A stretch of DNA of 38,584 nt from a virus: the IMG/VR virus record IMGVR_UViG_3300033552_000029, positions 1 through 38,584 of that record; one strand, 5' to 3'. Of the stretch, positions 79-28,902 are shown in pieces; positions within the stretch are counted from its first letter, which is position 1; each line of letters opens with the position of its first letter. Below the pieces are notes generated by a model. It saw only the letters and a list, made by a program, of their open reading frames with translations. It made no database searches and was not told the origin of the DNA. The position numbers and the translations under genes are program-made.

Positions 79-107
79 TTCACACTGGAAACTTTTCCTT
101 CTATACT
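79..107 (+). promoter_or_regulatory. Predicted sigma70 promoter of the late operon
   Basis: TTCACA (79-84), a 17-base spacer and TATACT (102-107) match five of six bases in each consensus box. Transcription would start near 114, about 20 bases before the small terminase start codon. It is the best + strand promoter upstream of the structural genes. Confidence 0.6.
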
Positions 108-962: not shown

Positions 963-1505
963 ATGCTAAAGTGCCCCGCGCCAGAATCTTTCCGCTTCGC
1001 CCACCTTCTCCATCTTCCTTCTGGAATCTGCTTACTCTGCAATCTGAGGGTGCTGGAGGCTAAAGAAGGTTGGGAAAGAGGCTGGCTGGGGGAGACTGAA
1101 GCAGAATATACAAAAGAGGCATCCCCTTCTGCTGCTTCTGGGGCTACTGAAGCTAAAAATGTGCCCAAAGCAATCCCTCTTCACCAAGTTTTCCCTGGAT
1201 TATCCTCTGCCTGGGCTAGTCCATTCCCTGTAACAACATTTCTGGAGTATAAGACAGTGAAGAAAGCAAAACCGGCCGAAGTAACAAACATTACTCCCGG
1301 CGATAATCAGAAGCAGACTGCCCATTCTGTGGACATTCTTTCCCTTCACTTCAACCTGGATGAGGATGATACAGAGGATGCGCAGACAGTCCAAGAAGCT
1401 TCTTCTGGCTTCTGCGGGACTACTTATGATAAAATTTACCTGGGTGAGTGCGGGGATACTGAAGCTGGCTCCGGGGCTACTGCAAATCAGCCTACACCAG
1501 AATAG
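963..1505 (+). CDS. Hypothetical protein carrying an in-frame copy of the dispersed dyad
   Basis: This 180-residue protein is not recognised. ATG 963 is preceded by AAAGG about 8 bases upstream. The N-terminal third has three Cys residues including CLLC; the C-terminal half is acidic and polar. Residues about 104-113 (AEVTNITPGD) are encoded by dispersed-dyad copy 2, which is read in the same frame as copy 6 in the ejection protein at 15024; this supports real coding here. The open frame could begin further upstream (about 870), but that would overlap the small terminase and lacks a ribosome site. Its position between the terminase subunits is sometimes used by accessory packaging genes; no function is proposed. 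Confidence 0.45.
   Translation: MLKCPAPESFRFAHLLHLPSGICLLCNLRVLEAKEGWERGWLGETEAEYTKEASPSAASGATEAKNVPKAIPLHQVFPGLSSAWASPFPVTTFLEYKTVKKAKPAEVTNITPGDNQKQTAHSVDILSLHFNLDEDDTEDAQTVQEASSGFCGTTYDKIYLGECGDTEAGSGATANQPTPE
1272..1302. repeat. Dispersed dyad, copy 2 (inside a CDS)
   Basis: CCGGCCGAAGTAA, spacer CAAACA, then TTACTCCCGGCG. It lies inside the hypothetical gene at 963-1505 and is translated as AEVTNITPGD. Confidence 0.8.
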
Positions 1506-1563: not shown

Positions 1564-1606
1564 TAAGTCAATGACTTATTCTATCATCTTTATAAAGATC
1601 CGTCAA
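1564..1606 (-). promoter_or_regulatory. Antisense-pointing sigma70 promoter with operator dyad, copy A
   Basis: On the - strand TTGACG (1606-1601), 17 bases and TAGAAT (1583-1578) form a good promoter. The perfect dyad TAAGTCA-A-TGACTTA (1564-1578) overlaps the end of the -10 box and would cover the start site. A run of eight C follows on the transcript. The same arrangement is present at 30390-30432. Transcription would run leftwards, against the genes at 963 and 134, with no - strand gene that I can support downstream inside the window. Confidence 0.6.
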
Positions 1607-2119: not shown

Positions 2120-3586
2120 ATGTCTAATAATGCTGTCTCCCATCTTCCTGAAGTTCTCTGGTCGCCTCAGATTGGCCCTCAGACCGCTCTTCTCCAATGT
2201 CCTGTCTTTGAAGTCTTCTACGGAGGTGCCCGAGGCGGAGGAAAGACAGAATCTTCTATCGGAGACTGGCTTCAGCATTCAGGGATGTATGGTGAAGGTG
2301 CAATTGGTATATTCTTCCGCCGGAAACTCACCCAACTTGCTGAAGTAATCGCTCGCACTAAACAAATATTCACCAAGCTTGGAGGAAAGTACAATGAGCA
2401 GAGAAAAGAATGGAGTATGCCAGGAGGTGGCCGCCTCAAATTTGCGTACCTTGAAAAAGACTCAGATGCTGAGGAGTATCAGGGACACTCCTACACTCGC
2501 GTATATATCGAGGAAGTTACCAATTTTCCCTCTCCTGATCCTATTAATAAGCTTCGAGCCACTTTACGTTCTGGCGCTGGTGTGCCTTGCGGGATGCGGC
2601 TTACTGGCAATCCTGGCGGCCCTGGGCATAATTGGGTAAAAGCACGGTATATCACTCCTGCGCCTCAAGGTTATGTTCTAATCACAGAGTCTTGTGAGGT
2701 TGAAATTGATGGTGTAATCCGCCTTGTAAGCCTCGACCGTGTATTCATCCCGTCGAAGCTCAAGGATAATGCTCTCCTCTTAAGAAACGATCCTACTTAT
2801 GTCCTCCGCTTGCGTCAATCCGGATCAGAAGCTCTTGTCAAAGCCTGGCTTGAAGGAAACTGGGATATTATCGACGGAGCATTCTTCACAGAGTTCACAG
2901 ACGCCCATATCCTCAAGTCAGAATGGAGGAAGCGAATCCCCCCACAAACCCTGCGATTCCGGTCCCACGATTGGGGATCTGCTAAACCTTTCTCAACTGG
3001 ATGGTATGCAGTTTCTGATGGCACTTGGGGTTTACCCTTTGGCGCGCTGTACAAATATCGGGAGTGGTACGGCAGCTGTGGGCCGAATAAAGGGCTGAAG
3101 ATGACGGCGGATCTTGTGGCACAAGGTATTGTCGAAAGGGAGAAGGAGGAATTTATTAAGTATGGTGTAGCTGATCCAGCTATTTTTATCCGAAACGGCG
3201 GGCCTTCGATTGCCGAGACGATGGCTATTCACAAGTGTATGTGGCGTCGTGGGGATAATAAGCGTATTCCTGGCTGGCAGCAGGTCCGGCAGCGACTTGT
3301 AGGAGAAAATGGTCTGCCTATGCTGTACTTTGATGAATCTTGCACAGATTCTTTAGAGCAAATCACCACTATTCAGCATGATGATGGTGATCCAGAGGAT
3401 ATTGATACTGATTCTGAGGAACATGCACTGGATGAAATTCGATATGCGGTAATGTCTCGTCCCTGGGTGGCTAAATCAGCGAGAGGACCAGCTCCGAACT
3501 TGCGGACAGGCCGGGCAGCACCTACTATTGACGAACTCCGCGCTATTACAAAAGCCAACCTGAAGAAGAAAGCCCAGACATTATGA
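2120..3586 (+). CDS. terL: Terminase large subunit
   Basis: This 488-residue protein is the ATP-driven DNA packaging motor and genome nuclease. The Walker A motif GARGGGKT is at about residues 36-43, and a Walker B-like segment (VYIEEVTNF) is near residue 130. An arginine- and glycine-rich coupling region (RLTGNPGGPGHNWV) follows. The C-terminal RNase H-like nuclease has the expected acidic residues in SHDWGSAKP (about 281), GVADPAIF (about 352) and EHALDEIRYA (about 433). The length is normal for phage large terminases. There is no good Shine-Dalgarno sequence before ATG 2120, unlike most genes here. The stop codon overlaps the portal start (ATGA), indicating translational coupling. Confidence 0.93.
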   Translation: MSNNAVSHLPEVLWSPQIGPQTALLQCPVFEVFYGGARGGGKTESSIGDWLQHSGMYGEGAIGIFFRRKLTQLAEVIARTKQIFTKLGGKYNEQRKEWSMPGGGRLKFAYLEKDSDAEEYQGHSYTRVYIEEVTNFPSPDPINKLRATLRSGAGVPCGMRLTGNPGGPGHNWVKARYITPAPQGYVLITESCEVEIDGVIRLVSLDRVFIPSKLKDNALLLRNDPTYVLRLRQSGSEALVKAWLEGNWDIIDGAFFTEFTDAHILKSEWRKRIPPQTLRFRSHDWGSAKPFSTGWYAVSDGTWGLPFGALYKYREWYGSCGPNKGLKMTADLVAQGIVEREKEEFIKYGVADPAIFIRNGGPSIAETMAIHKCMWRRGDNKRIPGWQQVRQRLVGENGLPMLYFDESCTDSLEQITTIQHDDGDPEDIDTDSEEHALDEIRYAVMSRPWVAKSARGPAPNLRTGRAAPTIDELRAITKANLKKKAQTL

Positions 3587-8184: not shown

Positions 8185-8194
8185 AAGGTAAATA

Positions 8195-8226
8195 GCCGGG
8201 AGTAATAAAAATTACTTCCGGCGGTT
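8195..8226. repeat. Dispersed dyad, copy 4
   Basis: GCCGGGAGTAA, spacer TAAAAA, then TTACTTCCGGCGG followed by TTTATTTTT. It lies between the capsid gene and the next gene. With its T-rich tail on the + strand this copy looks most like an intrinsic terminator, which would attenuate transcription after the capsid gene. Confidence 0.85.
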
Positions 8227-8253
8227 TATTTTTCTAACATTCAGGAGCATCAA

Positions 8254-10420: not shown

Positions 10421-11985
10421 AACAAGCTCTCGGCGGACAAAAAGCACGTAATCAGGTAACAGATATCGAAAGGTCTGTTACCGCTCCTATTGGCGGGCTG
10501 AATTCTCGTGACCCTTTGGCAGCGATGAAGCCGCAGGATGCGCTGATTCTGGATAATCTTATCTGTCGTCCGAGTAGTATTGAAGTTCGTAAGGGAATGG
10601 CTAATTTTGTTACGGGGTTTGCGGAAACTGAAAAGGTGTGGGGATTGTTGCCATACCGGGCTTCTCCGGTGGATAAGCTTTTTGCGACTACGGATCTGGG
10701 AATTTACAATGCGACTACAGCTGGGGTAGTCGGGGTTAAGGTGGCTAATTCAACAAACGGCCGCTGGGAAAGTATTAACGGCGCGAATGCAGGGATTAGA
10801 TTTTTATTGGCGGTGAATGGTGCTGATCCGATGAAGCTGTATAATGGAACAGTTTGGTCAGATGCCGCAGTTACCTATATGCTAGGCGGTGTTTCGACTG
10901 TGTATAATACCGCACTGTTTACCAATATTGCTCAGTTTAAGTTTCGTGTATTCTTCACCGAAAAAAATACTTTGAGCTTTTGGTATCTTGCGGTGAATGC
11001 AGTGCAAGGATTGGCCACAGAGTTTCCGCTTGCTCCGCTGTTTAAACTTGGCGGAAGCTTGCTTGCGATTGGTAATTGGACACTGGACGGCGGTAATGGC
11101 CCAGATGATTACTGCGCGTTTATCACAACGGAAGGTGAACTGGCTGTGTATAAAGGCACTGATCCGGCGAATGCAGCTACTTGGGGTTTGGTGGGTGTTT
11201 ATGCCTTGCCGCGCCCGATTGGCAGAAAATGCTTTTTTAAGCTCGGCGGAGATTTGATTATTATCACCGAATCCGGGCTGGTTAAAATGACTTCGGTTTT
11301 GTCAGCTGTGGATGAGCGGCTGGCAAGCATTTCAGATAAGATCATCGGTGCGCTGAGTGATGCAGCGAGGAAGTATAAAACGAATTTTGGCTGGAGCTTG
11401 ACACTGTTGTCGGCAGAAGATATTTTAATTTTAAATGTCCCTACAATTGAAGGATCAGCTTCACAGCAATTTGTCATGAACACGCTTACAGGTGCCTGGA
11501 GTATGTTTAAGCAAATGAACTCTTTCTGCTTTATTGAGCTGGGCGGTAGGCTGTTTATGGGCACGACTAACAGGGTGATAAACGCTCTGTATGGACAGTC
11601 GGATTATGGCAACAATATTACTATCCGAGCGCAGACAGCTTATAACAATTTTGGCCAGCCACTGGCGAGTAAGCATATTAAATTGCTGCGCCAGAATTAT
11701 CGTACCTCGAAAGAAGTATCGGTGAGGCTTGCAATTAGCGAGAATTTTCAGCAAACTTTCACCAGCACACCGAATACTCCGATCCCTTCGAATTTATCCA
11801 CTTTCGATACCAGTTTGTGGAATGGTGCATTCTGGACGGAAGAGGATTATATCGTATCCGCCTGGCGCACAGTCGCACATAAGTCCGGGTATCAACTGTC
11901 TTTGCTGATGGTGATATCAGATGTTAATTACACTTTTGAGTGGAATAGCACAGACTTCCTGATCGAAAAAGGGATTGGATTCTAA
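10417..11985 (+). CDS. Tail hub / packaged-DNA stabilisation protein (beta-propeller-like)
   Basis: This 522-residue protein begins with APIGGLNSRDPLAAMKPQDA, a phrase common to podovirus proteins that plug the connector after packaging (P22 gp10-like or tubular B-like). Repeating beta-rich units follow, for example KLYNGTVWSD, AVYKGTDPAN and FKLGGDLIIITESGLVKM, consistent with a beta-propeller. It is translationally coupled to the adaptor gene. Dispersed-dyad copy 5 begins 3 bases after the stop codon. Confidence 0.72.
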   Translation: MKQALGGQKARNQVTDIERSVTAPIGGLNSRDPLAAMKPQDALILDNLICRPSSIEVRKGMANFVTGFAETEKVWGLLPYRASPVDKLFATTDLGIYNATTAGVVGVKVANSTNGRWESINGANAGIRFLLAVNGADPMKLYNGTVWSDAAVTYMLGGVSTVYNTALFTNIAQFKFRVFFTEKNTLSFWYLAVNAVQGLATEFPLAPLFKLGGSLLAIGNWTLDGGNGPDDYCAFITTEGELAVYKGTDPANAATWGLVGVYALPRPIGRKCFFKLGGDLIIITESGLVKMTSVLSAVDERLASISDKIIGALSDAARKYKTNFGWSLTLLSAEDILILNVPTIEGSASQQFVMNTLTGAWSMFKQMNSFCFIELGGRLFMGTTNRVINALYGQSDYGNNITIRAQTAYNNFGQPLASKHIKLLRQNYRTSKEVSVRLAISENFQQTFTSTPNTPIPSNLSTFDTSLWNGAFWTEEDYIVSAWRTVAHKSGYQLSLLMVISDVNYTFEWNSTDFLIEKGIGF

Positions 11986-11987
11986 AT

Positions 11988-12019
11988 GGCCGGGAGTAAT
12001 AATTCTTACTCGGGGCGGT
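11988..12019. repeat. Dispersed dyad, copy 5
   Basis: GGCCGGGAGTAA, spacer TAATTC, then TTACTCGGGGCGG. The right arm ends 2 bases before the ATG at 12021, so the dyad occupies the whole leader of that gene and its GGGGCGG is the only purine-rich sequence available as a ribosome site. Confidence 0.82.
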
Positions 12020-12020
12020 T

Positions 12021-12500
12021 ATGAACATCGTTACGGGCCAGGACGATCGTTGCGGTCCCTGGATGTGCGAGCGGCAAGGATTGCCTTGGATTCCAGGTTC
12101 GGGAAAGACAATTGGACTAGAATCTGACTTAGGAGAGTTGAGAGCAGTTGTATGCTTCGACTCTTATAATGAAGTAAACATTAGTATGCACGTAGCGGCT
12201 GCTCCAGGTAGGCACTGGCTCAACCGAAATTTCCTGTGGTATAGTTTTTACTATCCTTTTGTAGAGCTTCAGTGCAAAAGGATTACAGCTGTGGTCGCCT
12301 CCTGTAATGCTGAGGTTCGGCGGTTCATGGACAACTTAGGCTTTACTCTTGAGGCGACCCTTAAAGATGCTCATCCCGCCGGGGATTTGCTGATCTATGT
12401 TATGCATAGGGATCAGTGCCGGTGGATAACTCACTTAAAGGATCGTCCAAATGGGCAAGCAGAGACCCCCTCCCCCACCAGATTATGCAAGCGCGGCTAG
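12021..12500 (+). CDS. GNAT-like acetyltransferase fold protein
   Basis: This 159-residue protein resembles the GNAT-fold proteins often found among podovirus tail genes. The segments KRITAVVASCNAEVRRFMDN and LGFTLEATLKDAHPAGDLLI correspond to the GNAT strand-4/helix-4 region, where cofactor binding and the typical 'lGF..eg' turn occur. It has five cysteines. Its start is placed directly against dispersed-dyad copy 5, and its last 50 bases overlap the next gene in another frame. Whether it acetylates a virion or host target is unknown. Confidence 0.65.
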   Translation: MNIVTGQDDRCGPWMCERQGLPWIPGSGKTIGLESDLGELRAVVCFDSYNEVNISMHVAAAPGRHWLNRNFLWYSFYYPFVELQCKRITAVVASCNAEVRRFMDNLGFTLEATLKDAHPAGDLLIYVMHRDQCRWITHLKDRPNGQAETPSPTRLCKRG

Positions 12501-15024: not shown

Positions 15025-17084
15025 TGACCACTCCCGCAGAAGAACTGGCAGAACTTCGTAAACTGGAAGAACTAGAGAAACGGGCTGCAGTAGCAAAGCC
15101 CGAAGAAGAAGGTTTTCTCTCCAGGAATACTCCTGATTGGATGAAGAATACAGGTACGGCTATTTATAAAGGATTGGCCGGACTCCCTGCTGGCGCGATG
15201 GATGCGCTTAATAGTAGTTATGATTATACTGATGCGGTAAGGGCGAGTAATGGTCTGCCGGTGCGGGAACTTGATAAGACTATGCCAGCTTCCCGTGCAC
15301 TGAATGCTACTGGTTATCAGCCAAAAACTCAGGGAGAGCGTTATGTTAATATGGCTGTTCGTGGTGCTGCAGGCGCTGCTCTCGGTCCGGGTTCTTTTAT
15401 TAACGTTCCACGTACGATGCTTGCTGGTGGTTCTGCTGGTATTGTCAGTGAAGGAGCTGGCCAGCTACCGGGGATCAAGGGCACTCCAAGTGAAGGAACA
15501 GCCCGAGTGGTCGGCGCATTGGCTGGTGGTATTGGGACTAGCATGCTACTTGCTCCCATGAAGAATTCGCGGCAGTTGGCAGGGGAGATGCTGGAAGGCG
15601 TGGCTCCTGCAGATTTGGCTGCTGCGAAAAGGGCTATGGAGCAGGCAAAAGTGGCAGGGGTTCCGATTAACCTTGATCAGGCGATGGGTAAGGATACGAA
15701 TATTACCAATGTGGTAAATGCTCTAGTGGGGAGGAAAGAAGGGCAAACAGTGGTGGATCAACTACGCGCACAGCCTGCTCAGGTAAAAGGGCTGGCGGAT
15801 AGATTGACCGCATTGCTGCCGGGTACCATCAGGGAAAAATCCGATATCGCTAATATGTCACAGGCAGCTGCAACAGCAGCGATCGTCAGAGCAAAAGAAA
15901 TGCGGACTAATGCAACAGAGCCTCTTTTTGCTCGGTCGGGGTTAATCCCTGTAAAGACCTTAGACAAAATGATTATGGAAGCAACTGCAGCTGCTAAAGC
16001 CGCTCCTGCGACTAATAAGGGGGAGTTGTTCGATGAGATGGTGCAGATGCTTAAAGGGTTTAAAGAACGCGCTACTCCGCCACCTTCCGGGCTATTAGAT
16101 GCAAGTGGTAGGCCTTATGCTTCTGCCGCTAATCCTGTAAGTATGCAGGAAGTAAACGCTGCTCTGCGGACGAAGATGACAAATGCCAAGAATGTGAACA
16201 TGAGCTCAAGCGCAGGAGATAGTGAAGCTCGGAATGCTCTGGGAAAAATGGTCGGAGGCTTCAGAGAGAAAATGGGTGCGGTTAGCCCGAAGTTTAAAGA
16301 AGCAAATGACCTGTATGGAAAAATTTCAACTGTTCGAGTCGATCCGATGAAAAAATCTGTGATTGGCCGTGTTGCAGGAATTGCTGGAGAACAGGCAGAT
16401 ACCGAAGCCGTGAATAAGCTTTTACCAATTCTGGCAGCTGGGCGGAATCCGAAGACCTTAACATCTGAAATCACAGAGTTTGCTAAAGTTACCGGGCATA
16501 CCCCAAGGATCTTCCAGGATGCCTTCAAAACCCACTTTTCGAATGCAGCTGCTGCTGCAGAAAAGCAGGCTAAAGGGGCATTATCCCCCGGCATGGCAGC
16601 AGAGATGGAAAAGGTTTTGCTGGGAAATGCCAATCAGCGAGCAGGGATGCGGGATGCTTTGCAGGCAATTGCTGTTGGGCAGGGTAAACCAAAAGATGCA
16701 CTTTATCCTGGGTTTATGGCAGCGATGAAGATCATCAGCGCCTCTGCAAAACGTCCTGGCGCAATGGGGCCAAATGGCGAAGCACTGAATCAAATCGCAG
16801 GGCAATCTGTCGCAGCAAGTGGCTTACGCATGATTGGCCTCGCTCCAGGTAAACCAGCCGCAGCGGGCCTGCAGGGGTATCTTACCGCTGACGCCTATCG
16901 TACATTAGCTGATAACTTGACAACCGCAGCGGGTGTAGCGAAACTCCAAGAGTTGGCTAGGGTGCCTATCATGAGCGCCAAAGCCCAAGGAATCGTAAAC
17001 ACTCTCCTGGCCACCAAGGCAGTCGCAACACCGGGCGAAGTAACAAATGTTACTCCCGGCGGTAATGAAACGAAAGAAAACTGA
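15024..17084 (+). CDS. Large ejection-type virion protein carrying an in-frame dyad
   Basis: This 686-residue protein has a charged N-terminal helix (EELAELRKLEELEKR), then amphipathic Gly/Ala-rich segments around residues 105-185 (VRGAAGAALGPGSFINVPRT, ALAGGIGTSMLLAP) that could insert into membranes, and a long helical body. These are features of proteins ejected with the DNA to cross the cell envelope. The last residues (GEVTNVTPGGN) are encoded by dispersed-dyad copy 6, in the same frame as copy 2 in the gene at 963. Start and stop both overlap neighbours, showing tight coupling. Confidence 0.65.
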   Translation: MTTPAEELAELRKLEELEKRAAVAKPEEEGFLSRNTPDWMKNTGTAIYKGLAGLPAGAMDALNSSYDYTDAVRASNGLPVRELDKTMPASRALNATGYQPKTQGERYVNMAVRGAAGAALGPGSFINVPRTMLAGGSAGIVSEGAGQLPGIKGTPSEGTARVVGALAGGIGTSMLLAPMKNSRQLAGEMLEGVAPADLAAAKRAMEQAKVAGVPINLDQAMGKDTNITNVVNALVGRKEGQTVVDQLRAQPAQVKGLADRLTALLPGTIREKSDIANMSQAAATAAIVRAKEMRTNATEPLFARSGLIPVKTLDKMIMEATAAAKAAPATNKGELFDEMVQMLKGFKERATPPPSGLLDASGRPYASAANPVSMQEVNAALRTKMTNAKNVNMSSSAGDSEARNALGKMVGGFREKMGAVSPKFKEANDLYGKISTVRVDPMKKSVIGRVAGIAGEQADTEAVNKLLPILAAGRNPKTLTSEITEFAKVTGHTPRIFQDAFKTHFSNAAAAAEKQAKGALSPGMAAEMEKVLLGNANQRAGMRDALQAIAVGQGKPKDALYPGFMAAMKIISASAKRPGAMGPNGEALNQIAGQSVAASGLRMIGLAPGKPAAAGLQGYLTADAYRTLADNLTTAAGVAKLQELARVPIMSAKAQGIVNTLLATKAVATPGEVTNVTPGGNETKEN
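17031..17063. repeat. Dispersed dyad, copy 6 (inside a CDS)
   Basis: CCGGGCGAAGTAA, spacer CAAATG, then TTACTCCCGGCGG. It encodes GEVTNVTPGG near the C-terminus of the ejection-type protein. Confidence 0.85.
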
Positions 17085-17329
17085 TGGAAGACCTTCCAAT
17101 GACTCGCCGCCAATCTGATATTGATGAAAAACTTGAAGTTGCTTTGCGGTTTCAGAGGATCGAAGCCACACTGGAACTTCTTTCCAAAAACCTCGAAAAG
17201 AATACTGATTCGACAAAAGAACTTTTAACAGCTTGGAATAGTTCTAACTGGCTGTTGAGTTTTATTAAGGGCGGGGCAGTTTTAGCCGCTGCTGGTCTTG
17301 CAATCTGGTACAAATTTGGAGGTCATTAA
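17084..17329 (+). CDS. Small membrane protein (holin or lysis accessory candidate)
   Basis: This 81-residue protein has a charged, coiled-coil N-terminal region (LEVALRFQRIEATLELLSKN) and one hydrophobic segment at about residues 57-76 (LLSFIKGGAVLAAAGLAIWY). It overlaps the previous stop codon (TGATG) and is followed by a second membrane protein, the tailspike and the endolysin, so a role in lysis is plausible. The topology resembles single-span phage accessory proteins often annotated as haemolysin XhlA-like; that assignment is by appearance only. Confidence 0.65.
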   Translation: MEDLPMTRRQSDIDEKLEVALRFQRIEATLELLSKNLEKNTDSTKELLTAWNSSNWLLSFIKGGAVLAAAGLAIWYKFGGH

Positions 17330-17330
17330 T

Positions 17331-17819
17331 ATGGTAGTTCCTGCCCTGGTAGCGATGTTGCTGGAAAAAGGTCTTGGTATGATCGGTGGCGCGGTACTGG
17401 CTAAAGGTCAAGCAGTGATTGAGGAGAAGTTAGGAATTTCCCTGAAAACTCCTCCTACGCAAGCTGAGCTTATTGAGTGGAAAAAGATTGAAGTTGCTGA
17501 AAGTCAGTGGCTCATGGATCAGATGATGAAAGGTCGGCAGCAGGAAGCTGACTTTCAGAAACAGCAGGAAGAGGCCGTAACCGCTCGTTGGCAGGCGGAT
17601 ACAAGCACCGATTCTGCACTGGCAAAAAATATTCGTCCTGGGGTGTTAATGTATTTGTTGGGCGCTTATACAGTCCTGGCGATTATGTCGGCATTCAGCT
17701 ATAATGTCGAAGAATCATATGTTCTGCTGCTTGGGCAGTGGGGCATGATTGTGATGACAGCCTATTTCGGCGGGCGTACGCTGGAGAAGATTATCAGTAT
17801 TAAAGAAGGAGGCAAATAA
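17331..17819 (+). CDS. Holin-like protein with three hydrophobic segments
   Basis: This 162-residue protein has hydrophobic segments at about residues 3-24, 106-124 and 130-147, with a long charged helix between the first and second. The pattern KNIRPGVLMYLLGAYTVLAI resembles the 3TM holins of gene-transfer-agent and phage clusters. ATG 17331 is chosen because GGAGG lies 9 bases upstream. It lies two genes before the endolysin, consistent with timing of lysis through the inner membrane. The stop overlaps the tailspike start (TAATG). Confidence 0.7.
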   Translation: MVVPALVAMLLEKGLGMIGGAVLAKGQAVIEEKLGISLKTPPTQAELIEWKKIEVAESQWLMDQMMKGRQQEADFQKQQEEAVTARWQADTSTDSALAKNIRPGVLMYLLGAYTVLAIMSAFSYNVEESYVLLLGQWGMIVMTAYFGGRTLEKIISIKEGGK

Positions 17820-19762
17820 TGCCTTGGAATGGAAATGGGACTTTTACCGAACCGGTTGCCCCGGAATTCCCAGCAGTAGCTGGTGACCTTATTCGCGCAG
17901 AATACTTTAACACGGTTATCCGTGCTTTGTGTTCTGGGTTTTCTAATACACTTCCGAGGGATGGGCAAGCTGTTGCTACCGGGGATGTTAATCTTGGCAA
18001 TTTGTTTAAAGTTGTCAATATGGCGGCAGCTACTGCTGACGGACAAGCTGTACGATATCAGGAATTTGTAGCGAGTCTCGCGGCCTTTTCTGTCGCTGGG
18101 TACACAGAACTGCGTGCTTATGCTGCTACCAGCAAATATATCTATGTGACAGGGTATTTAGTATCAGCTGCCCCGTTGGGGATTGCAGGTATGTTTGTGC
18201 TGGATACTGCTGATGTAACCAGCGCTGATAATGGCGGTACGATTATTGTAACTGCGCTGGGAAAAAGGTACAAAAGAATTTTTGATGGTAAAGTGAATGT
18301 GCAGTGGTTTGGAGCAAAGGGAAATAGCACTGATGAGTTTACTGCTATCTCTAATGCCCTGACATATGTTCGGGGGATTAATGGAGTTTTGTTTTTTCCT
18401 CAGTCGTCAGGAGATTACTCTCATTCAGGGACTCTTGTCCTTGGGGCGTCGAGTGTGGGGATTGAGGGGGATAGTCCTGAAGTGCGGTTAAACTACACCG
18501 GCACCGGGACCGGCTTAATTATCAATTCTAGCTATGCTTCGCCTCAGCGGGAAAGGTGCTCAATTCGCAATATCACCCTGTACTCAACAACAGGGGCAGT
18601 AGCCTTTGACTGGACAGGAAGTAATTACGGCAATTACACTGGATTTGAAATTAACTATACCGCAGCTAATGCAAAGCTGTTGTATGCAATTGGGTCGAGT
18701 GGGGCAGGACCTTACTTTAATCAGTTTTCAGGGTTCACTTTGTTTGGTGGTGCCGATCGCTCTCAGTATGGTATTTGGCTTGCTTCAGATACTTCTGGAA
18801 ATTTGGCAGATGGCCCGAATGCAAATATCTTTTCAGACATTAAACGCGCAGCTTCACTGTTCCGCTTTATTAACATTATGTCTGGTCATGGGAATCTGTT
18901 CTCAAATGGGGGGGGAGAGTCGATTAAAGATTCAATGATCGTGCTAAATGATGTGCTGGTATATGCAGACACTGGTACAGCTACAGCAACAACTACGAAC
19001 TCCTTGACCGACACCACAAAAGTCTGGAGTGCTACAATTGGCGCTGCAAATAACTGGACCAATGGGGCAGTTGTGATTACTAGCGGGCCTTTTATAGGCG
19101 CAGCACGAAAGATCTTAATTAACACTGCTACAGCACTGACCTTGGATAAGAGCTGGCCTGATAACATCGGGACACCTACTTATGCTTTGGTAAAATCTAA
19201 GGCAATTGCCAATAAATTTGTCAACTTCCGTCAGGAAGGGCTTGCTTCTGATAACCCTGAAGGCGTTCGTATTATGCCTGGGGCCTTGGCGAATGAGTGT
19301 GTTAATTTTGAGCTGGGCAGTCTTGGTTCAGGTAAGCCAGTTGATGATCAGTATGGAGAGCCGACAAATAAGGTAAATATCGGTGACCTGATGATTTATC
19401 AATATATCCTTGTTGATCCTGGCGCAAGTGCTACAAAAACCCTTATCCCCCGCTTATCAGTATTTGGCGGGATTCGTGCAGGTGCTCAAATGGCGCTGGA
19501 GTATATTGAGCTTTCCTGCCCAGATTACACTGCCGGGGTAGCGACACTTACCGTGGATCACGGAGGCTCTGCTACAGGTAATGGCTCAGAAACACTGACA
19601 GTAAAAGTAAACTCTTTCAACACGAAGGAAGCTTTTACTAATTCAAAAGCTAAAACAATGCGAAGCACTGTGAATAACGGAATTTTTGCAAGTGTGGTCA
19701 CTGATGCGGCTTTTAGTGCTACATCAGATATCATTGTTACAATTGCTTTTAAAGTCCTGTAA
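17819..19762 (+). CDS. Tailspike with pectate-lyase-like beta-helix
   Basis: This 647-residue protein is the probable host-recognition and polysaccharide-degrading spike. Residues 1-130 form a virion-anchor region (MPWNGNGTFTEPVAPEFPAV, GDLIRAEYFNTVIRAL). At about 160 the typical start of a right-handed beta-helix appears (VNVQWFGAKGNSTDEFTAIS, LFFPQSSGDYSHSGTLVL), followed by repeating short strands to about 440. The rest is beta-rich and may form the C-terminal trimer domain. AAGGAGG precedes ATG 17819. Catalytic residues cannot be assigned by eye; the host receptor is unknown. Confidence 0.82.
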   Translation: MPWNGNGTFTEPVAPEFPAVAGDLIRAEYFNTVIRALCSGFSNTLPRDGQAVATGDVNLGNLFKVVNMAAATADGQAVRYQEFVASLAAFSVAGYTELRAYAATSKYIYVTGYLVSAAPLGIAGMFVLDTADVTSADNGGTIIVTALGKRYKRIFDGKVNVQWFGAKGNSTDEFTAISNALTYVRGINGVLFFPQSSGDYSHSGTLVLGASSVGIEGDSPEVRLNYTGTGTGLIINSSYASPQRERCSIRNITLYSTTGAVAFDWTGSNYGNYTGFEINYTAANAKLLYAIGSSGAGPYFNQFSGFTLFGGADRSQYGIWLASDTSGNLADGPNANIFSDIKRAASLFRFINIMSGHGNLFSNGGGESIKDSMIVLNDVLVYADTGTATATTTNSLTDTTKVWSATIGAANNWTNGAVVITSGPFIGAARKILINTATALTLDKSWPDNIGTPTYALVKSKAIANKFVNFRQEGLASDNPEGVRIMPGALANECVNFELGSLGSGKPVDDQYGEPTNKVNIGDLMIYQYILVDPGASATKTLIPRLSVFGGIRAGAQMALEYIELSCPDYTAGVATLTVDHGGSATGNGSETLTVKVNSFNTKEAFTNSKAKTMRSTVNNGIFASVVTDAAFSATSDIIVTIAFKVL

Positions 19763-19774: not shown

Positions 19775-20308
19775 ATGAAGCCTTTGACAGTAGAGACATT
19801 GATCCAAATTTATCCTCTTGCTAAGCGAAGAGCCCCTTTATTTGTGGGGCATCTGAATAATGCGATGGATGAATGGGATATTACAAATCTGCTGAGAAGG
19901 GCTTCATTTTTGGCACAAGTGGGACATGAGTCGATGCAGCTGTTTTACACAAAAGAGATTGCGAGCGGGAAAGCTTACGAAGGTAGGCTGGATTTGGGAA
20001 ATACTCAACCTGGGGATGGGGTGAAGTTTAAGGGGAGAGGGTTGATACAACTGACAGGCAGGGCTAATTATACGAAGATGATGATGGCGCTGGATGTGGA
20101 TTGTGTGGAGCATCCAGAAATTCTTGAAGCCCCTGACTTGGCTACTCGGTCAGCAGGATGGTTTTGGAAAACTCATGGACTGAATGAGCTAGCGGATACC
20201 GGGGATCAGCGAAGGGTGACAAAGAGGATTAATGGTGGGTATAATGGGTTGCATGATAGGCTGACATTATATGAAGCTGCGCTAAAGGCACTAAAAGCCG
20301 CAAGTTAA
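19775..20308 (+). CDS. Endolysin, GH19 (chitinase-like muramidase) family
   Basis: This 177-residue enzyme probably cleaves the glycan strands of peptidoglycan at lysis. The GH19 signature is clear: FLAQVGHESMQLF with the catalytic Glu (about residue 49), then YEGRLDLGNTQPGDGVKFKG and RGLIQLTGRANY, and RRVTKRINGGYNGLHDR near the C-terminus. There is no signal or SAR segment, so release would depend on a holin. AAGGAG lies upstream of ATG 19775. It is the last gene of the late operon and ends directly before a bidirectional terminator. Confidence 0.92.
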   Translation: MKPLTVETLIQIYPLAKRRAPLFVGHLNNAMDEWDITNLLRRASFLAQVGHESMQLFYTKEIASGKAYEGRLDLGNTQPGDGVKFKGRGLIQLTGRANYTKMMMALDVDCVEHPEILEAPDLATRSAGWFWKTHGLNELADTGDQRRVTKRINGGYNGLHDRLTLYEAALKALKAAS

Positions 20309-20310
20309 AA

Positions 20311-20336
20311 AGAAGCCCGCTAGATGCGGGCTTTTG
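20311..20336. terminator. Bidirectional terminator between convergent operons
   Basis: AAGCCCGC (20313-20320), loop TAGAT and GCGGGCTT (20326-20333) with CTTTTGTTT on the + strand and TTCTTTTTAA on the - strand. It separates the endolysin from the DNA polymerase gene. Confidence 0.9.
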
Positions 20337-20337: not shown

Positions 20338-22713
20338 TTATTTGCAATCTCCCCAACTTTTAGCTGAGGTTTTAATCCCTACAGGGACAATTAAAGGTTC
20401 GGGGTAAGGGAGAATGATTTTCGATTCTTCGATAATCCTATCCTTCACCCATCCGAGGTGGGATGGATACTGGCCAGCGAGGGAATCGTGTACCTGCAAC
20501 AGAACTTCGGCTTCCGGGAGATTGTTGTGAATGTTGACGTAAGCCCGGTTGATAATTTGTCCAACTGTTGACTGTGGAATCCACGCAACAGCCTCGTTGA
20601 AGATGTTACCTTCAATCTTGTCGAAGAAGTTGTAACGATAACCGAAGATATTTGTGATGTAACGACGGCCCGAGACTTGCTTTTTGATCTCTTCGTGCCA
20701 AACTTTGATTTCAGGACAAAGCCCGAAATACCAGTCCTGGATTCGCTGGACTTCATGGACGAGCAGGCCGATTTTTCCAGCCATTCCCTGAGGAGTTCCA
20801 AGGTAATGAGTCCCGTGGCACAGTGCTTTGAATACAGGATAAGATTTATGAGACTTGGTGATTGTCTGATCATTGTAATACTCCTTAGCTACCTCAACAT
20901 ACGGTTTTTTCCCTGCAGCCAGCTGAGCCTTAAGCCATTTGCAGTCTGACTCGGCGGCAACGATTCGCAAGTCTGCTGAGTCGAGGTCGATATCCCAGAA
21001 AGTGTTTCCTTCATCGGGGATAAAGATTCTACGTACGTTCGGGAGGTCAAGGCCTTCATCTTCAGTCTCGCCTCCGTTTGGGACATTTTGGAAGTTGCAG
21101 CCATTGTCGTAAGCATCTTTTGTTGACGCGAAACGGTAAGTTTTGGTCCCTGCAATTTTAAAGTTGGTACGTATGCGGCCATCTGGTGACGGTCTAGCCT
21201 GGATAAAATTGGAATTAAATACACCGAGGGAACGGAGTTCTGAGACTTTCCTGGTAATGGGGCGGAGGATTGGCTCCCGAGCAGCGATTTTGTGGAGTGC
21301 TTCATCATTAGTGGTCACACCGCCTTCCTTGGATACATAAGGTGCTTGACCCATATCTGTGTAAAAGAAATCGGCCATCTGTTTCGGGGACTTAATGTTG
21401 AGTTCGTAGCCGATTACGTCTTTCAGCCATGCTTCGCGCTCAGCAACGTTTTGCATGATTTCCATAGCAAACTGCGCACGGACCTGCATATCGAGCTTTA
21501 CGCCCCGCAGAATGGTTTTCAGGACAGGAGCTGCGAGCTCTTGTTGAAACTTCGCAATGTGGTCAAGCTTGAATGCACTGACAACACCTGAAAGAACTGT
21601 GTTAATCTTAAGAGTTCTGCAGGAGTCCGTACAGTTATAAGCCCAATATTTGTCCTCACCTTCTCCATCTTCTCCTTCTTGCCATAACGTACGATCATCT
21701 TTCCAGTGCAGGTGGTCATCACAATACATGGAGGACAGGAACGAGAGATTCTTTTCCAAGTTGCTGAAGACAGAGTGCTGTTTGAGCATGGTGTCTTCAA
21801 CAGTAAACTTAGGAAGCCAGTGCCAAGAATTGTAGATATACTGTGCATCATAGTTCCAGTTCTGGCCAACGAGGACTGCTGATTGGCCTATACGGTAGAT
21901 AAGGTGGCATAGGACTGCTTCTTCTTCGAGCGTCCAATAGCCTTCTTTGTTGTGGAGACACATGAGGGGGATACAGATTGCATCTAATTCCGTCCATGCG
22001 AAGGCGATACAAGCAATGTGCCCTGCACGGGTTTCAATGTCGGCACCGAGCTTCATAGTGCCAGGGGAGGCTTCGCATTGAGTGGCTAATTGAGTCAAGA
22101 TAGAAACCGCGGTGTCGAAGTCCGGGCGGAGTAAGAAATTGTACTCCGGGCGGTTAATGGTACGAAACTGCATTTCTCGTTGTACACGCTTCAGATCGTG
22201 GACAATCAGCCCGCGCCACTTCCACTGACCAAAAACAACATTCGGACTGAGGGTAGGGATAACTTTAAAACCCGGTACTAGAGTACAATCCAGCAAAGAA
22301 GAACGCCAAGAATTAGCACCCCATTGGCCGGTCAGCGCGAACAATGCGAGATTACCCATCGGAACAATTACATTAGGCTTCACCAGCTCAATTTCCTGGC
22401 GCAATTCCTCTATCCCCTCAATAACCAGAGGATGCACCATCTTCCCTTCAAACAGTTTATAGTCAGATTTTACATGGGATTTTTTTAGTGCTACCAGCCC
22501 CCCGATCGTTCCACCTGGAGCGCGGCTGCGTACAACTGAAGTGATGAAACAACTTTCACGAAAGAGATTTGCCTCTTTGAGCATCTTTGTAAGTTCGTAT
22601 CCTGCTGAACTCGACATAGGAGAACCTTTGAGAAGATCACCTTCTCCAGGGAACTCCCCGACTAGCATTACTTTGGCTGTTGAAGGCCCGGTCGGGTATA
22701 TCCTTGAGTTCAT
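20338..22713 (-). CDS. Family A DNA polymerase with N-terminal UDG-like domain
   Basis: This 791-residue protein is the replicative polymerase. Residues about 14-185 resemble family 4 uracil-DNA glycosylases: MLVGEFPGEGDLLKGSP and PNVIVPMGNLALFALTG. The later HP motif reads TLSPNVVF, so the expected His is lost and glycosylase activity is doubtful. A 3'-5' exonuclease follows (GADIET near 222, NWNYDAQ near 285, YNCTDSC near 358). Polymerase motif A is DLDSADLRIV (about 576), with Asp where E. coli Pol I has Glu710. Motif B is FKALCHGTHYLG (about 628), and motif C is QVHDSL (about 740). Dispersed-dyad copy 7 encodes the linker at residues about 187-198. The gene starts 2 bases after the methyltransferase stop codon. 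Confidence 0.9.
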   Translation of the reverse strand: MNSRIYPTGPSTAKVMLVGEFPGEGDLLKGSPMSSSAGYELTKMLKEANLFRESCFITSVVRSRAPGGTIGGLVALKKSHVKSDYKLFEGKMVHPLVIEGIEELRQEIELVKPNVIVPMGNLALFALTGQWGANSWRSSLLDCTLVPGFKVIPTLSPNVVFGQWKWRGLIVHDLKRVQREMQFRTINRPEYNFLLRPDFDTAVSILTQLATQCEASPGTMKLGADIETRAGHIACIAFAWTELDAICIPLMCLHNKEGYWTLEEEAVLCHLIYRIGQSAVLVGQNWNYDAQYIYNSWHWLPKFTVEDTMLKQHSVFSNLEKNLSFLSSMYCDDHLHWKDDRTLWQEGEDGEGEDKYWAYNCTDSCRTLKINTVLSGVVSAFKLDHIAKFQQELAAPVLKTILRGVKLDMQVRAQFAMEIMQNVAEREAWLKDVIGYELNIKSPKQMADFFYTDMGQAPYVSKEGGVTTNDEALHKIAAREPILRPITRKVSELRSLGVFNSNFIQARPSPDGRIRTNFKIAGTKTYRFASTKDAYDNGCNFQNVPNGGETEDEGLDLPNVRRIFIPDEGNTFWDIDLDSADLRIVAAESDCKWLKAQLAAGKKPYVEVAKEYYNDQTITKSHKSYPVFKALCHGTHYLGTPQGMAGKIGLLVHEVQRIQDWYFGLCPEIKVWHEEIKKQVSGRRYITNIFGYRYNFFDKIEGNIFNEAVAWIPQSTVGQIINRAYVNIHNNLPEAEVLLQVHDSLAGQYPSHLGWVKDRIIEESKIILPYPEPLIVPVGIKTSAKSWGDCK
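22121..22154. repeat. Dispersed dyad, copy 7 (inside the DNA polymerase gene)
   Basis: CCGGGCGGAGTAA, spacer reading GAAATT, then GTACTCCGGGCGG. On the coding strand it is translated as NRPEYNFLLRPD and falls at the junction of the UDG-like and exonuclease domains. It is the most diverged of the good copies. Confidence 0.7.
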
Positions 22714-22715
22714 GA

Positions 22716-24143
22716 TTAGCGAACCCTCAGCATTCCGAGAAGTTCTTTTCCAAGCGCTTCACCATCGAGAGGAGCAGGGGCATTTTCGAGTTCTTTGAGC
22801 CGCTTGTACGCCATGCCGTAATATTCCGGGTTTTGCTCTGTGACTGTTGAGATGAGTTTAAGCTCCTGCGCAGCCGCAAGCATCGTGCCGCTGCCACCGA
22901 AGAAATCGGCGACACTATCACCTGGACGGCAGGAGCGCTTGAGGAGGTCTACATACAAGGCCACTGGTTTCTGTGCTCCGTGTGTGAGGTTTGCATCTGC
23001 AGTAGTGCTAATAACGTCAGATGCGATGTGAAGGACGTTTTTGTGCCCTTTAATAGCATAGAGTATGGTTTCATACTGACGTCGTGGACCTTCTGTCGGC
23101 AAAGGCACCCGTCCGCTGTTTGGCTTGTGCGCGATGAGCATTGTTCTGAAGACATACCAACCTGCCGTTTCCATCATGATTTTCAGTTGTGGGAAATTCG
23201 CCTGATCGCAGAATACATATGCGTGGCACTGCTTTTTTGCCAAACGGAAGGATTCTGGGCACCACTTCATCATCAACTCTTCCCAAGCTTCAAAGGAGTC
23301 GTCATAGTGGTGCTCAGAGTTGACGAGTTTGCCGCCACCATCACCGAAATCCTGCGCACCCATGCCGTAAGGAGGATCGGTCAGGATACAGTCGTAGAGT
23401 TCGCTTGGCTGTTCACGCATCCAGTCGATACAATTCACATTCAACAGCGTATGCACATCGGAAGTATAGGTCTGTCCGACAGTCGCTGCTAACTTGATGT
23501 TTTCGTGTGCGGCTTCTTGCTTTTTAATGATTTTGAAAGCTTCCTCAACACTCTTGGCTTTGTTGACTTCTGGGTTATTAAGGTGTTTAGCAACGATAAG
23601 TTCTTTCCTGATGTTGTTTTGGAAAGCGCCGTCAGAGCGTCCTTTAACTTCCATGGCGGTATCTGCAACTGTGTGGATACGCCCCGCTGCAGCTGCCTGC
23701 TTAATGCGAAGAGCATGGAGTCGTTGGAGCGCTGCACCTGACTCTTGCCATGTGAGGTCTTTGCGCTTGAGGTTTTCTTCGAGTTCAGCTTCTTCTGCTT
23801 CAAGGGGGGAAAGTTGCCCGAGTGTGACATAAGGGATCATTCCTTCAGGTACAGGCTGGTTGTTATAACGGAGCTTACCGCCGGTCATGGAGAGCATGTC
23901 GATTGCCTTGAGACGGGTTTCTCCGGCTACAAGGTGAAGGACAATCTGACCGTCTATCATTACTTCCCGGACTACAGGGGCGTGGAGGAGTCCCTGGCGG
24001 TCGATGCCTTGACTGAGTTCCATGATGAAGTCAGGGTCAAATTCTTTCCGCTGGCGGTCAGGGGGGATAATGAGGTCTTTACGTGCGATTAGCTGCATGG
24101 TATGGCATCCGTTTCTGTGGGGCAAATCGTTGAGTGGTGGCAT
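22716..24143 (-). CDS. ParB-like domain fused to a DNA methyltransferase
   Basis: This 475-residue protein has a ParB N-terminal-like domain (about 16-115; LIIPPDRQRKEF and LVAGETRLKAIDML, equivalent to the ParB GERR box). A helical part follows (about 115-225; ELEENLKRKDLTWQE, TVADTAMEVKGRSDGAFQNN), resembling a ParB helix-turn-helix. The C-terminal methyltransferase has DPPYGMG (about 254) before FFGGSGTML (about 412), the beta-class order used by N6-adenine and N4-cytosine enzymes. It probably modifies phage DNA against restriction. The start is either 24143 (GGA 6-9 bases upstream) or ATG 24098. It is followed 2 bases later by the polymerase gene. Confidence 0.87.
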   Translation of the reverse strand: MPPLNDLPHRNGCHTMQLIARKDLIIPPDRQRKEFDPDFIMELSQGIDRQGLLHAPVVREVMIDGQIVLHLVAGETRLKAIDMLSMTGGKLRYNNQPVPEGMIPYVTLGQLSPLEAEEAELEENLKRKDLTWQESGAALQRLHALRIKQAAAAGRIHTVADTAMEVKGRSDGAFQNNIRKELIVAKHLNNPEVNKAKSVEEAFKIIKKQEAAHENIKLAATVGQTYTSDVHTLLNVNCIDWMREQPSELYDCILTDPPYGMGAQDFGDGGGKLVNSEHHYDDSFEAWEELMMKWCPESFRLAKKQCHAYVFCDQANFPQLKIMMETAGWYVFRTMLIAHKPNSGRVPLPTEGPRRQYETILYAIKGHKNVLHIASDVISTTADANLTHGAQKPVALYVDLLKRSCRPGDSVADFFGGSGTMLAAAQELKLISTVTEQNPEYYGMAYKRLKELENAPAPLDGEALGKELLGMLRVR

Positions 24144-24213
24144 TTTTTCCGGGCGGGAATAGGTTGGTATAGGTAAATAATTGCCGACCGGATAGACGCG
24201 ATGTTTCTTAATG

Positions 24214-24642
24214 TTAGTATTTCTTGCCGCCTTCGCCAGCCCGGTGTGCTAAGGTGTGATCGAGGCGGGAAGCATTATAGGCCATTTTTTCTGCTAAAGC
24301 GCCGCCGAGGTCGAAGCCTTTAGCACCTGCGAGATCGCAAATACGGATTACAGCATCTGCAAGTTCGACTTCCAGCATCTTGCGGTGAGGGAGTTTGTCG
24401 TCCATCAGGTCTTTGCGGTCACCTTCCATGGCTTCGGAGACTTCACTGACGATGAGCATCAGCATTTCGCCGACATTACGCTGGAGTTTTTCTCCGGTTT
24501 TCATATTGGTCCACCAGCCAGCTTTGACGTTAGCCAAATGACAGTCACGGACAAGAATGTTCATAGCTTCGGCTTGGGTGCCGGGGGAACGCAGGGTGGT
24601 TGCTGCTTGTCGCAGGCTTAAAGTGGTTTCTACAACTGACAT
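24214..24642 (-). CDS. MazG-like nucleotide pyrophosphohydrolase
   Basis: This 142-residue all-helical protein carries the MazG metal-binding pattern: SEVSEAMEGDRKD (ExxE, about residue 67) followed by LEVELADAVIRICDLA (ExxD, about 91). MazG-like enzymes hydrolyse nucleoside triphosphates to monophosphates; in phages they may clean up nucleotides or lower (p)ppGpp. GGGGAT lies upstream of ATG 24642. The gene lies directly downstream of an intrinsic terminator, so it depends on read-through or an unseen promoter. Confidence 0.82.
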   Translation of the reverse strand: MSVVETTLSLRQAATTLRSPGTQAEAMNILVRDCHLANVKAGWWTNMKTGEKLQRNVGEMLMLIVSEVSEAMEGDRKDLMDDKLPHRKMLEVELADAVIRICDLAGAKGFDLGGALAEKMAYNASRLDHTLAHRAGEGGKKY

Positions 24643-24660
24643 CTTAATCCCCTTTTATAA

Positions 24661-24697
24661 GTAAAAAAGCCCTGCAGACTTCCGAATGCAGGGCTTA
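24661..24697 (-). terminator. Intrinsic terminator after the 24720-25181 gene
   Basis: On the - strand AAGCCCTGCA, a 10-base loop and TGCAGGGCTT are followed by TTTTAC. The 10-bp stem is perfect. It isolates the strongly promoted gene upstream from the MazG-like gene. Confidence 0.9.
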
Positions 24698-24719
24698 GGT
24701 AAAAGCCGACTAGCGGCGC

Positions 24720-25181
24720 TTAGTTTGGCTTTGCAACTGCTTTGACTTCGGCGAAGGTGTCTTCGTCAACCAGACGGTGCTTGATGCTGATTTTTGCCAT
24801 CTGGCCCGGCAGTTGCTGGAACGAGAAAGCTTGACCAGGCTGATTCAGGCCAACTGCTTCACGCAGACGACCGAGGCCGATGTTTTTGCCCTTGGACATA
24901 TCGAGCTGGCCGGAAGGCAGGACGTCGAGCATCAGGCCTTGTTTGACGTTGACGGTATCGCGGCCCAGGAATTGCTTGACTTCTTCGTCTTCCACGATCC
25001 AGGTGATATCGAGGGCCAGGCCGGAGGAAGTACCGTCTTTCGAGGTCCACTGACGTGGTACGAGCTTGTCGATCACGCCCAGGTATTCGCCGATTGGTAC
25101 GGGAATGACTTTAGTGTCATTTGCTTCAGTGACTGAGGAATCGAGGAATGCTTGTGGATCGAAAGCTGATAGGTTAGACAT
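24720..25181 (-). CDS. Abundant early protein, possible ssDNA-binding protein
   Basis: This 153-residue protein is not firmly recognised. The pattern PVPIGEYLGVIDKLVPRQW, then LALDITWIVEDEEVKQFLG, then GRLREAVGLNQPGQAFSFQQ is a beta-rich fold resembling phage proteins of the DUF669/ssDNA-binding type. It has its own near-consensus promoter (25252-25280) and terminator (24661-24697), and its C-ending codon use is like that of the capsid gene, so it is probably made in large amounts. Neighbouring Sak4-like, helicase and polymerase genes fit a role in replication or annealing. The binding role is inference. Confidence 0.72.
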   Translation of the reverse strand: MSNLSAFDPQAFLDSSVTEANDTKVIPVPIGEYLGVIDKLVPRQWTSKDGTSSGLALDITWIVEDEEVKQFLGRDTVNVKQGLMLDVLPSGQLDMSKGKNIGLGRLREAVGLNQPGQAFSFQQLPGQMAKISIKHRLVDEDTFAEVKAVAKPN

Positions 25182-25251
25182 TTATTGCTCCAGTATAGGC
25201 TAGGTTAGTTTGTCTCATTCAGGAAGAAGGTTCTGCCCGGTGAGTGAAATG

Positions 25252-25280
25252 ATAGTGCCACTTTTAAAACATGCTGTCAA
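25252..25280 (-). promoter_or_regulatory. Strong sigma70 promoter for the 25181 gene
   Basis: TTGACA (25280-25275, perfect), 17 bases and CACTAT (25257-25252) lie about 70 bases upstream of the start codon at 25181. Together with the downstream terminator it makes a one-gene unit. Confidence 0.75.
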
Positions 25281-25310
25281 ATAGTATCGGGTAAGTTCTA
25301 CACGATATTC

Positions 25311-25343
25311 GCCGGAAGTAATGAATGTTACTCCCGGCGGTTT
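25311..25343. repeat. Dispersed dyad, copy 8
   Basis: GCCGGAAGTAA, spacer TGAATG, then TTACTCCCGGCGG followed by TTTA. It starts 1-3 bases beyond the stop codon of the 25345-25716 gene on the - strand, in the position of a terminator, and upstream of the promoter at 25280. Confidence 0.85.
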
Positions 25344-25344
25344 A

Positions 25345-25716
25345 TTACGGTTTTGCCTTCGGAGCTGGGGCCACAGGAGCAGCTGCAACAGGTGCTTTCA
25401 GCGTTTCCACCAGCTCTTCAATCTTCGCATCTTGCGCGTCTTTATTCCGCTCGTCCTTAATCGCTGCCTGGACTTGATAATCCATCCAGTGAGCGAAGGT
25501 CGTGCCATCCTGCGGAACATCATCGTAGCGTGGATTGAGCAGTGGGCAATTGTTCGCCACTACATGACAGCCGGTGTCATTCCAGCCCGCTACATTGACA
25601 GTTTCATCATCGTTAACGCGGGTGATCAGGGCAGCGAATGGCTGTTCCTTGGTATCGGTGTTGATGTTGGAAATGCGCAGATAAACTACGCGACCAACTG
25701 TTGGAATCATCTTCAT
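25345..25716 (-). CDS. Conserved-looking phage hypothetical protein
   Basis: This 123-residue protein begins MKMIPTVGRVVYLRISN and continues with FAALITRVNDDETVNVAGWN and AHWMDYQ, a pattern seen in small phage proteins of unknown function encoded near replication genes. The C-terminus is Ala/Pro/Lys-rich. ATG 25716 is chosen over an upstream ATG because AGAAGGA lies 8 bases before it and the ATG overlaps the previous stop codon (ATGA). It ends against dispersed-dyad copy 8. Confidence 0.78.
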   Translation of the reverse strand: MKMIPTVGRVVYLRISNINTDTKEQPFAALITRVNDDETVNVAGWNDTGCHVVANNCPLLNPRYDDVPQDGTTFAHWMDYQVQAAIKDERNKDAQDAKIEELVETLKAPVAAAPVAPAPKAKP

Positions 25717-25943
25717 TGTACTTTTCCTTCTGTAGCATCCTGGCATCCGGCCAGTTCGGTTGGTAAAACTTTTGACAGTCCTGACAGACTATCCGCAAAA
25801 TTCCTTATTGCTGGATGAGGTTCTTGCCAGGTCATCATCGCACGGACAACTAACTTACGAAAAAGCGGCGCAAGTTCAGGAGGTACGAGCATTCCCAAAC
25901 TTCCGTCTGGGTTTTCATTCAGCTCGATGCGAGGCTTGGTCAT
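25713..25943 (-). CDS. Small hypothetical protein
   Basis: This 76-residue protein (starts MTKPRIELNENPDGSLGMLV) is not recognised. It is joined to both neighbours by ATGA overlaps, which supports real translation. The middle is a hydrophobic/basic helix (APLFRKLVVRAMMTWQ). No membrane segment is evident. Confidence 0.7.
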   Translation of the reverse strand: MTKPRIELNENPDGSLGMLVPPELAPLFRKLVVRAMMTWQEPHPAIRNFADSLSGLSKVLPTELAGCQDATEGKVQ

Positions 25944-26818: not shown

Positions 26819-27171
26819 TCTGTTTCCTTGTAAAGTTTCATGGCTTGTTGGAATTCATACCGTATCACTTCGTCGGGCAGTATGCTATTGAATTCTCTAT
26901 CCCAACTAGACCAGATTGAACCGGGGATTGCTCCCCAAGTTGTATCAGTATGGTTAGGGCAAGGGACTCGATACGGCATAAAGTCTGACTGTTTATTTGT
27001 CAGCAAATCCAGCACAGGAAAAATTGCCCAGGTTGTTCCACAGACAGGGCAAAAATACGCCATGCTGCAGGGGGAATTGGTTTCTTCATGGACTTGAATC
27101 GACTGACGTAAAGCATCACCAAGGTACTTATTGTTGACGATGAAAGTTTGTTTGTACCTTGGAGATTTCAT
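26785..27171 (-). CDS. Zinc-binding hypothetical protein
   Basis: This 128-residue protein has CPVCGTTW (about residues 41-48) and CPNHTDTTW (about 71-79), enough Cys/His for one zinc site. The rest is helical (LPDEVIRYEFQQAMKLYKET). Its start overlaps the nuclease stop codon (TAATG) and its end overlaps the Sak4-like gene by 34 bases. No specific family is recognised. Confidence 0.72.
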   Translation of the reverse strand: MKSPRYKQTFIVNNKYLGDALRQSIQVHEETNSPCSMAYFCPVCGTTWAIFPVLDLLTNKQSDFMPYRVPCPNHTDTTWGAIPGSIWSSWDREFNSILPDEVIRYEFQQAMKLYKETECLQTLQSLRQ

Positions 27172-28229: not shown

Positions 28230-28366
28230 GCCCACACCTTCTCAGCAAACTTTTCCCAAACAGCACGATCTTCATCACTGAGATCGGACCAACTATCAGA
28301 GTCAACTTGATAGAAAGAAAGAGCTTCTTGATACATTTCGTATGCTTTCATTCCAGGGCTTTTCAT
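28226..28366 (-). CDS. Very small acidic protein
   Basis: This 46-residue protein begins MKSPGMKAYEMYQEAL and ends FAEKVWA. It was found by reading the junction between its neighbours: the start overlaps the previous stop codon and its own stop overlaps the next start, both as ATGA. The last codons also supply the ribosome site GAGAAGG of the nuclease gene. It is a Trp/Tyr-containing acidic helix; no function is recognised. Confidence 0.75.
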   Translation of the reverse strand: MKSPGMKAYEMYQEALSFYQVDSDSWSDLSDEDRAVWEKFAEKVWA

Positions 28367-28901: not shown

Positions 28902-28902
28902 T

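Follow-up and report, generated by a model that had tools for sequence, protein, structure and literature searches.

Antisense and convergent promoters in phages

In temperate phages such as lambda, early promoters are repeated and, as at PL and PR, overlapped by the same palindromic operator; a dyad that overlaps the -10 and the start occupies the standard position for a repressor. The tet operator, bound by the TetR family, is a palindrome with a TCA-T-TGA centre. Phage promoters can also point against genes: lambda paQ is antisense to the late regulator gene Q and holds back late expression, and it is co-controlled with pI and pE by one regulator; CII activates it during the lysogenic response (PMC2327240). 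In phage 186, the face-to-face promoters pR/pL and pR/pE are under regulator control and subject to transcriptional interference, with CI and CII acting in the lysis-lysogeny switch; pR and pE are separated by 340 bp, and their interference is weak (PMC6593788). Thus, phages use both the antisense principle, as in lambda paQ (PMC2327240), and the convergent one, as in 186 (PMC6593788).

Here we describe a virus record of 38,584 bases (the window, meaning the whole stretch of DNA analysed) with two similar promoter units, A and B, both on the minus strand. Like lambda paQ, unit A is predicted to be a phage promoter antisense to a gene and co-controlled with another promoter. However, the A/B pair looks repressible, its target is terS rather than Q, and its -35 is near-consensus. 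It does not belong to the paQ family proper, given the terS target and the lack of a CII-type regulator in the early genes scanned with Pfam, PHROG and NCBIfam. As in 186, unit A converges with a rightward promoter, P_R, but the gap is about 1.4-1.5 kb instead of 340 bp and we found no repressor gene. As at lambda PL/PR, both units carry the same palindromic operator over the start or core promoter; they differ in having a single dyad each, the same strand, an invariant C-run, and one copy in the packaging gene region. The dyad shares the TCA-T-TGA centre of the tet operator with different outer bases, a resemblance that we take as a lead only; no TetR-like gene was present among the proteins scanned. 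Convergent and antisense control being already known in phages, the sequence suggests a variant in which one copy of a promoter pair is set against terS.

The closest annotated relative is MW202489.1 (Bacteriophage sp., Manatee Spring), whose TerL is 68% identical. It has the same plan of late genes to the right and early genes to the left. Unlike the window, its terS and terL overlap, it has neither unit A nor unit B, and a leftward promoter matching 11/12 consensus positions stands at the head of its early genes.

Sequence and conservation of the two units

Unit A (1606-1556, minus strand) is, by sequence, a leftward sigma-70-type promoter, with a -35 hexamer TTGACG at 1601-1606, a 17-nt spacer, and an extended -10 in which TGA precedes TAGAAT (1578-1583). 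A perfect 15-bp dyad, TAAGTCA-A-TGACTTA with a T at its centre on the minus strand, lies at 1564-1578 over the predicted transcription start (about 1569-1572) and is a candidate operator; a C-run follows directly 3' of it (1556-1563). Unit B (30432-30385, minus strand) repeats this design, also as a predicted leftward sigma-70-type promoter: TTGACC at 30427-30432, a 17-nt spacer, TAGAAT at 30404-30409 with an extended -10 (TGC), an identical dyad at 30390-30404 and a C-run at 30385-30389. The two units share 25 identical bases (30385-30409 in unit B) and are 80% identical across 49 nt.

The sequence-only reading had proposed a duplicated promoter-operator unit with a perfect dyad at the start followed by a C-run, and both units bear this out: same strand, same operator, same position of the operator. 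Its motif TTGAC-N17-TAGAAT was right, but not in its exact spacing, which is TTGACN-N17-TAGAAT. Allowing up to three mismatches, the dyad occurs at only two sites in the whole window, units A and B. Likewise, the window has two promoters that match 10/12 positions or more and carry a dyad (arms of at least 6 bp) at the start; in 200 dinucleotide shuffles of it the mean was 0.02 and the maximum 1, so that even a single such unit almost never arises in shuffled sequence.

The closest relative, G1 (IMGVR_UViG_3300008267_000128), has a TerL 83% identical to that of the window and is complete, since its ends overlap by 114 bp. It carries unit A between terS and terL and unit B among the early genes, and its unit A is a 12/12 consensus promoter, the strongest found in that genome. 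Two contigs of metagenome 3300049919, G2 (3300049919_000166) with unit A and L168 (3300049919_000304) with unit B, overlap by exactly 127 bases ending in the G-run of unit A, and are therefore most likely two halves of one genome. Thus, both units stand at the same places in three genomes (the window, G1, and G2 with L168), and a fourth fragment from an early region, L097, carries unit B.

We aligned the seven units (A and B of the window and of G1, A of G2, B of L168 and of L097). All seven have a TTGAC-like -35, a 17-nt spacer, a TA(T/G)AAT -10, the dyad and at least five C, and 22 of the 48 columns are invariant. The extended -10 TGN accompanies TAGAAT in 5/5 units and TATAAT in 0/2, the pattern expected for functional promoters, and from such sequence features we infer promoter activity. 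The dyad follows AARTCAnnGAYTT with one exception, and its half-sites vary as TAARTCA. Both arms have changed jointly in G2 (AAGTC/GACTT to AAATC/GATTT); L097 combines one arm of each type. Conservation is lower in the arm distal to the -10 than in the near one, whereas the C-run is among the most invariant parts, more so than the distal arm.

In the surroundings of unit A, the unit itself is the sole blastn match between relatives, and the flanking DNA can no longer be aligned, which argues that unit A itself is under selection. Neither unit occurs in the more divergent relatives MW202489 and G3-G9 (full-length; TerL 67-73% identical). Scanning the genome collection with the unit gave no further genome and no matching virus outside the clade, and a TerS search of viral contigs gave no additional relative. 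The loose pattern matches L003-L006 and L008 had no promoter beside the dyad and were judged to be chance. Judged on these comparisons, units A and B are a real, conserved and clade-specific pair of predicted promoters with a common operator.

Position of the units among late and early genes

Late genes run rightward from terS (134-931) and terL, the large terminase (2120-3586), to about 20.3 kb, and replication genes run leftward from about 38.4 to 20.3 kb. The window itself has no end repeats; its ends are contiguous in G1. The plus-strand ORF at 134-931 is named terS by position because no profile names it; it is conserved on that strand, at 52% to G1, 48% to L168 and 32% to MW202489.

In the window, in G1, and in G2 with L168, unit A is placed in the gap that separates terS from terL. 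Just 5' of terS, the rightward promoter P_R (79-107, plus strand; TTCACA-17-TATACT) faces unit A. P_R matches 10/12 positions in the window and in L168, with a weaker counterpart at the same place in G1, and the distance to unit A is about 1.4-1.5 kb in all three genomes. Since both promoters recur, convergent promoters over terS are a trait shared by this clade. Unit A had been proposed to be antisense to terS and to an ORF at 963-1505 (plus strand). For terS, a conserved plus-strand gene in three genomes, the antisense geometry is real; for the 963 ORF, situated between terS and unit A, none of the relatives has a homologue, and this part of the proposal is weakened. No independent minus-strand ORF 3' of unit A is conserved among the relatives; the only minus-strand match reflects the conservation of terS, within which it falls. 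MW202489 and several others have abutting or overlapping terS and terL genes and thus lack the DNA in which unit A sits in the unit-bearing clade. In the same region, exact copies of CCAGCRAAGCAGG, a candidate packaging signal, occur at 1635-1647 in the window, 19156-19514 in G1, and 39 and 393 in G2, and the terS-terL region is the only place where these three carry it.

Unit B was expected to drive the early operon. Early genes for a nuclease, AAA, methylase and DNA polymerase (20338-30327, minus strand) do lie 3' of it, but it is not their sole driver: P3, a conserved leftward early promoter without the dyad (33706-33734, minus strand; at 33734 in the window, 14488 in G1 and 13960 in L168), lies upstream, with no strong terminator between the two in the window. 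Unit B would thus be a booster of that region, one of several promoters, and repressing unit B alone would leave early transcription going. P4, another conserved leftward promoter without the dyad, is clear at 5418 in G1 and 6338 in L168, and has only a TTGACA at its place in the window (about 25.3 kb). Among the conserved early promoters, the dyad is limited to units A and B. The suggestion that one repressor switches off the early operon therefore keeps its shared operator but loses the global shut-off, as a single regulator would not silence P3 and P4.

Two intrinsic terminators on the minus strand divide the early region. T2 (33785-33815; counterpart at 14010-13976 in L168) stands directly before P3. 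T1 (36153-36172), present in all three genomes, follows the first early gene cluster, which runs leftward from 37773 to 36194; transcripts of unit A running through terS could thus serve only this cluster.

Other features of these arms were also observed. An ORF at 22716-24143, conserved across the family, fuses a ParB_N-like domain to an N6/N4 DNA methylase. A minus-strand ORF of 401 aa (33836-35041) with a strong terminator after it is present in the window only and resembles an extra gene acquired by insertion. At 20216-20335, an 11/12 rightward promoter (GTGACA-18-TATAAT) lies about 65 nt before a bidirectional terminator (20311-20335) and could produce a short RNA.

Proposed role of the pair and alternatives

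At the functional level, we tentatively prefer, with somewhat less than even confidence, a reading in which A and B are co-regulated leftward promoters sharing a dyad regulator, and unit A holds terS low until that regulator accumulates. Both would be strong host-type (sigma-70) promoters answering to one regulator that recognises the dyad. Because the dyad extends from the last base of the -10 over the start site, this regulator would most likely be a repressor that blocks RNA polymerase. Unit B would boost the leftward early genes in their second half. Unit A would fire from the terS-terL gap against P_R and, while early promoters are active, keep terS expression low by head-on transcription and antisense RNA. 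Accumulation of the shared repressor would lower both units and free terS. The earlier idea that packaging would start as early transcription ends is plausible, although such a regulator would shut off early transcription only in part, P3 and P4 having no operator. The weaker conservation of the distal dyad arm also speaks against the preferred reading, and convergent interference can be weak, as in 186 pR/pE (PMC6593788).

For the regulator, neither domain search nor presence/absence combined with structure identified a repressor gene, and no lysogeny genes were seen. Two small early proteins, encoded at 28363-28683 (106 aa) and 36680-36859 (59 aa), are restricted to unit-bearing genomes and were the sole candidates by presence/absence. 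The 59-aa and 106-aa proteins were predicted as three helices and a low-confidence beta fold, respectively, had no meaningful PDB match, and were set aside.

A simple repressor model leaves the C-run without an explanation, which counts against our preferred reading. Two other readings involve the C-run. The dyad may be the site of an activator or host factor, or dyad and C-run may jointly determine initiation or escape of the early transcript or a 5' RNA feature. The constancy of the C-run (7/7, above that of the distal arm) and the failure to detect a phage repressor favour this, but the overlap with the -10 and start is typical of repressors, the first arm is probably upstream of +1, so that the dyad would not be fully in the RNA, and the leaders have no shared structure. 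Folding the 5' leaders of units B and A, L168 left out, gave a z below -3 only for unit B of G1, and Rfam had no match for the predicted RNA from unit A. Overall, we find this unlikely. Read on the plus strand, the C-run becomes a G-run with a start codon 7 nt after it, so the conserved piece might instead be a translation start, with a Shine-Dalgarno-like G-run, 7 nt, and ATG-ACT-TAT opening a small ORF. All seven units do have five or more G followed after 7 nt by a start codon (six ATG, one TTG), with ORFs of 26-94 codons. However, the -35, the 17-nt spacer, the extended -10 and the symmetrical dyad would then be unaccounted for, the peptides are unlike past the first few residues, unit B lies opposite early genes, and a G-run Shine-Dalgarno is found at 2/54 starts of this phage and is thus not usual. 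This reading we consider scarcely credible.

The position of unit A allows other accounts. If it is mainly a far-upstream early promoter, then with the genome ends joined its RNA would cross terS as a long leader and feed the first early cluster, any antisense effect being incidental. The contiguity of the window ends in G1 (through its 114-bp end overlap) agrees with this, as does the best leftward promoter of the window region between terS and the early genes, at only 9/12, and the place of unit B about midway between unit A and the early-gene end in three genomes (9.76/10.05, 9.35/9.13 and 8.12/8.18 kb). Still, the first gene would be preceded by some 2.1-2.4 kb of non-coding or antisense DNA, candidate promoters of 9-10/12 stand at the head of the early genes in G1 and L168, and T1 would stop transcripts after the first few genes, so we hold it possible but rather doubtful. 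Unit A might otherwise be a functionless relic or by-product of the duplication of unit B, for example with DNA inserted between terS and terL, where more DNA separates the two genes than in MW202489 and several relatives with abutting or overlapping genes, and where the ORFs beside unit A are not conserved. Its persistence in three genomes despite unalignable flanks, and its rank as the strongest promoter found in G1, make a relic very improbable. Phage phi29 uses a phage RNA in packaging, and there is a slim chance that unit A makes a dedicated early RNA, tied to the early genes by the operator, whose direct target would be terS mRNA or the packaging machinery; if true, this RNA would be an early-expressed clock for packaging.

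The delay of terminase until replication is under way is usually credited to late activators or antiterminators. A terS-aimed promoter coupled to the early programme through a common operator, as in our preferred reading, would offer a simple alternative that can be tested directly, since natural variants of both units exist within the clade.

Several other repeats were observed. A palindrome, CCGCCGGGAGTAA-N6-TTACTCCCGGCGG, is scattered through the window in eleven copies, most of them intergenic, at 8-49, 1266-1307, 2059-2100, 8187-8228, 11981-12022, 17025-17066, 22116-22157, 25303-25344, 29986-30027, 31329-31370 and 36409-36450. A few diverged versions occur in G2, L168 and L097, and the same rule found none in G1 or MW202489; the palindrome may be an RNA hairpin, a terminator or a mobile repeat. 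Two sites resembling bacterial chromosomal parS (TGTTTCACGTGGAACA and TGTTCCACGTGGAACC; 37531-37546 and 38360-38375) lie in or near the long region before terS and are absent from G1. Finally, iteron-like repeats of GCAANNATCRTGCCAG lie between the early genes and terS in the window (38470-38584), G1 (17265-17380) and L168 (about 16.25-16.45 kb), and are a candidate replication origin or packaging site.
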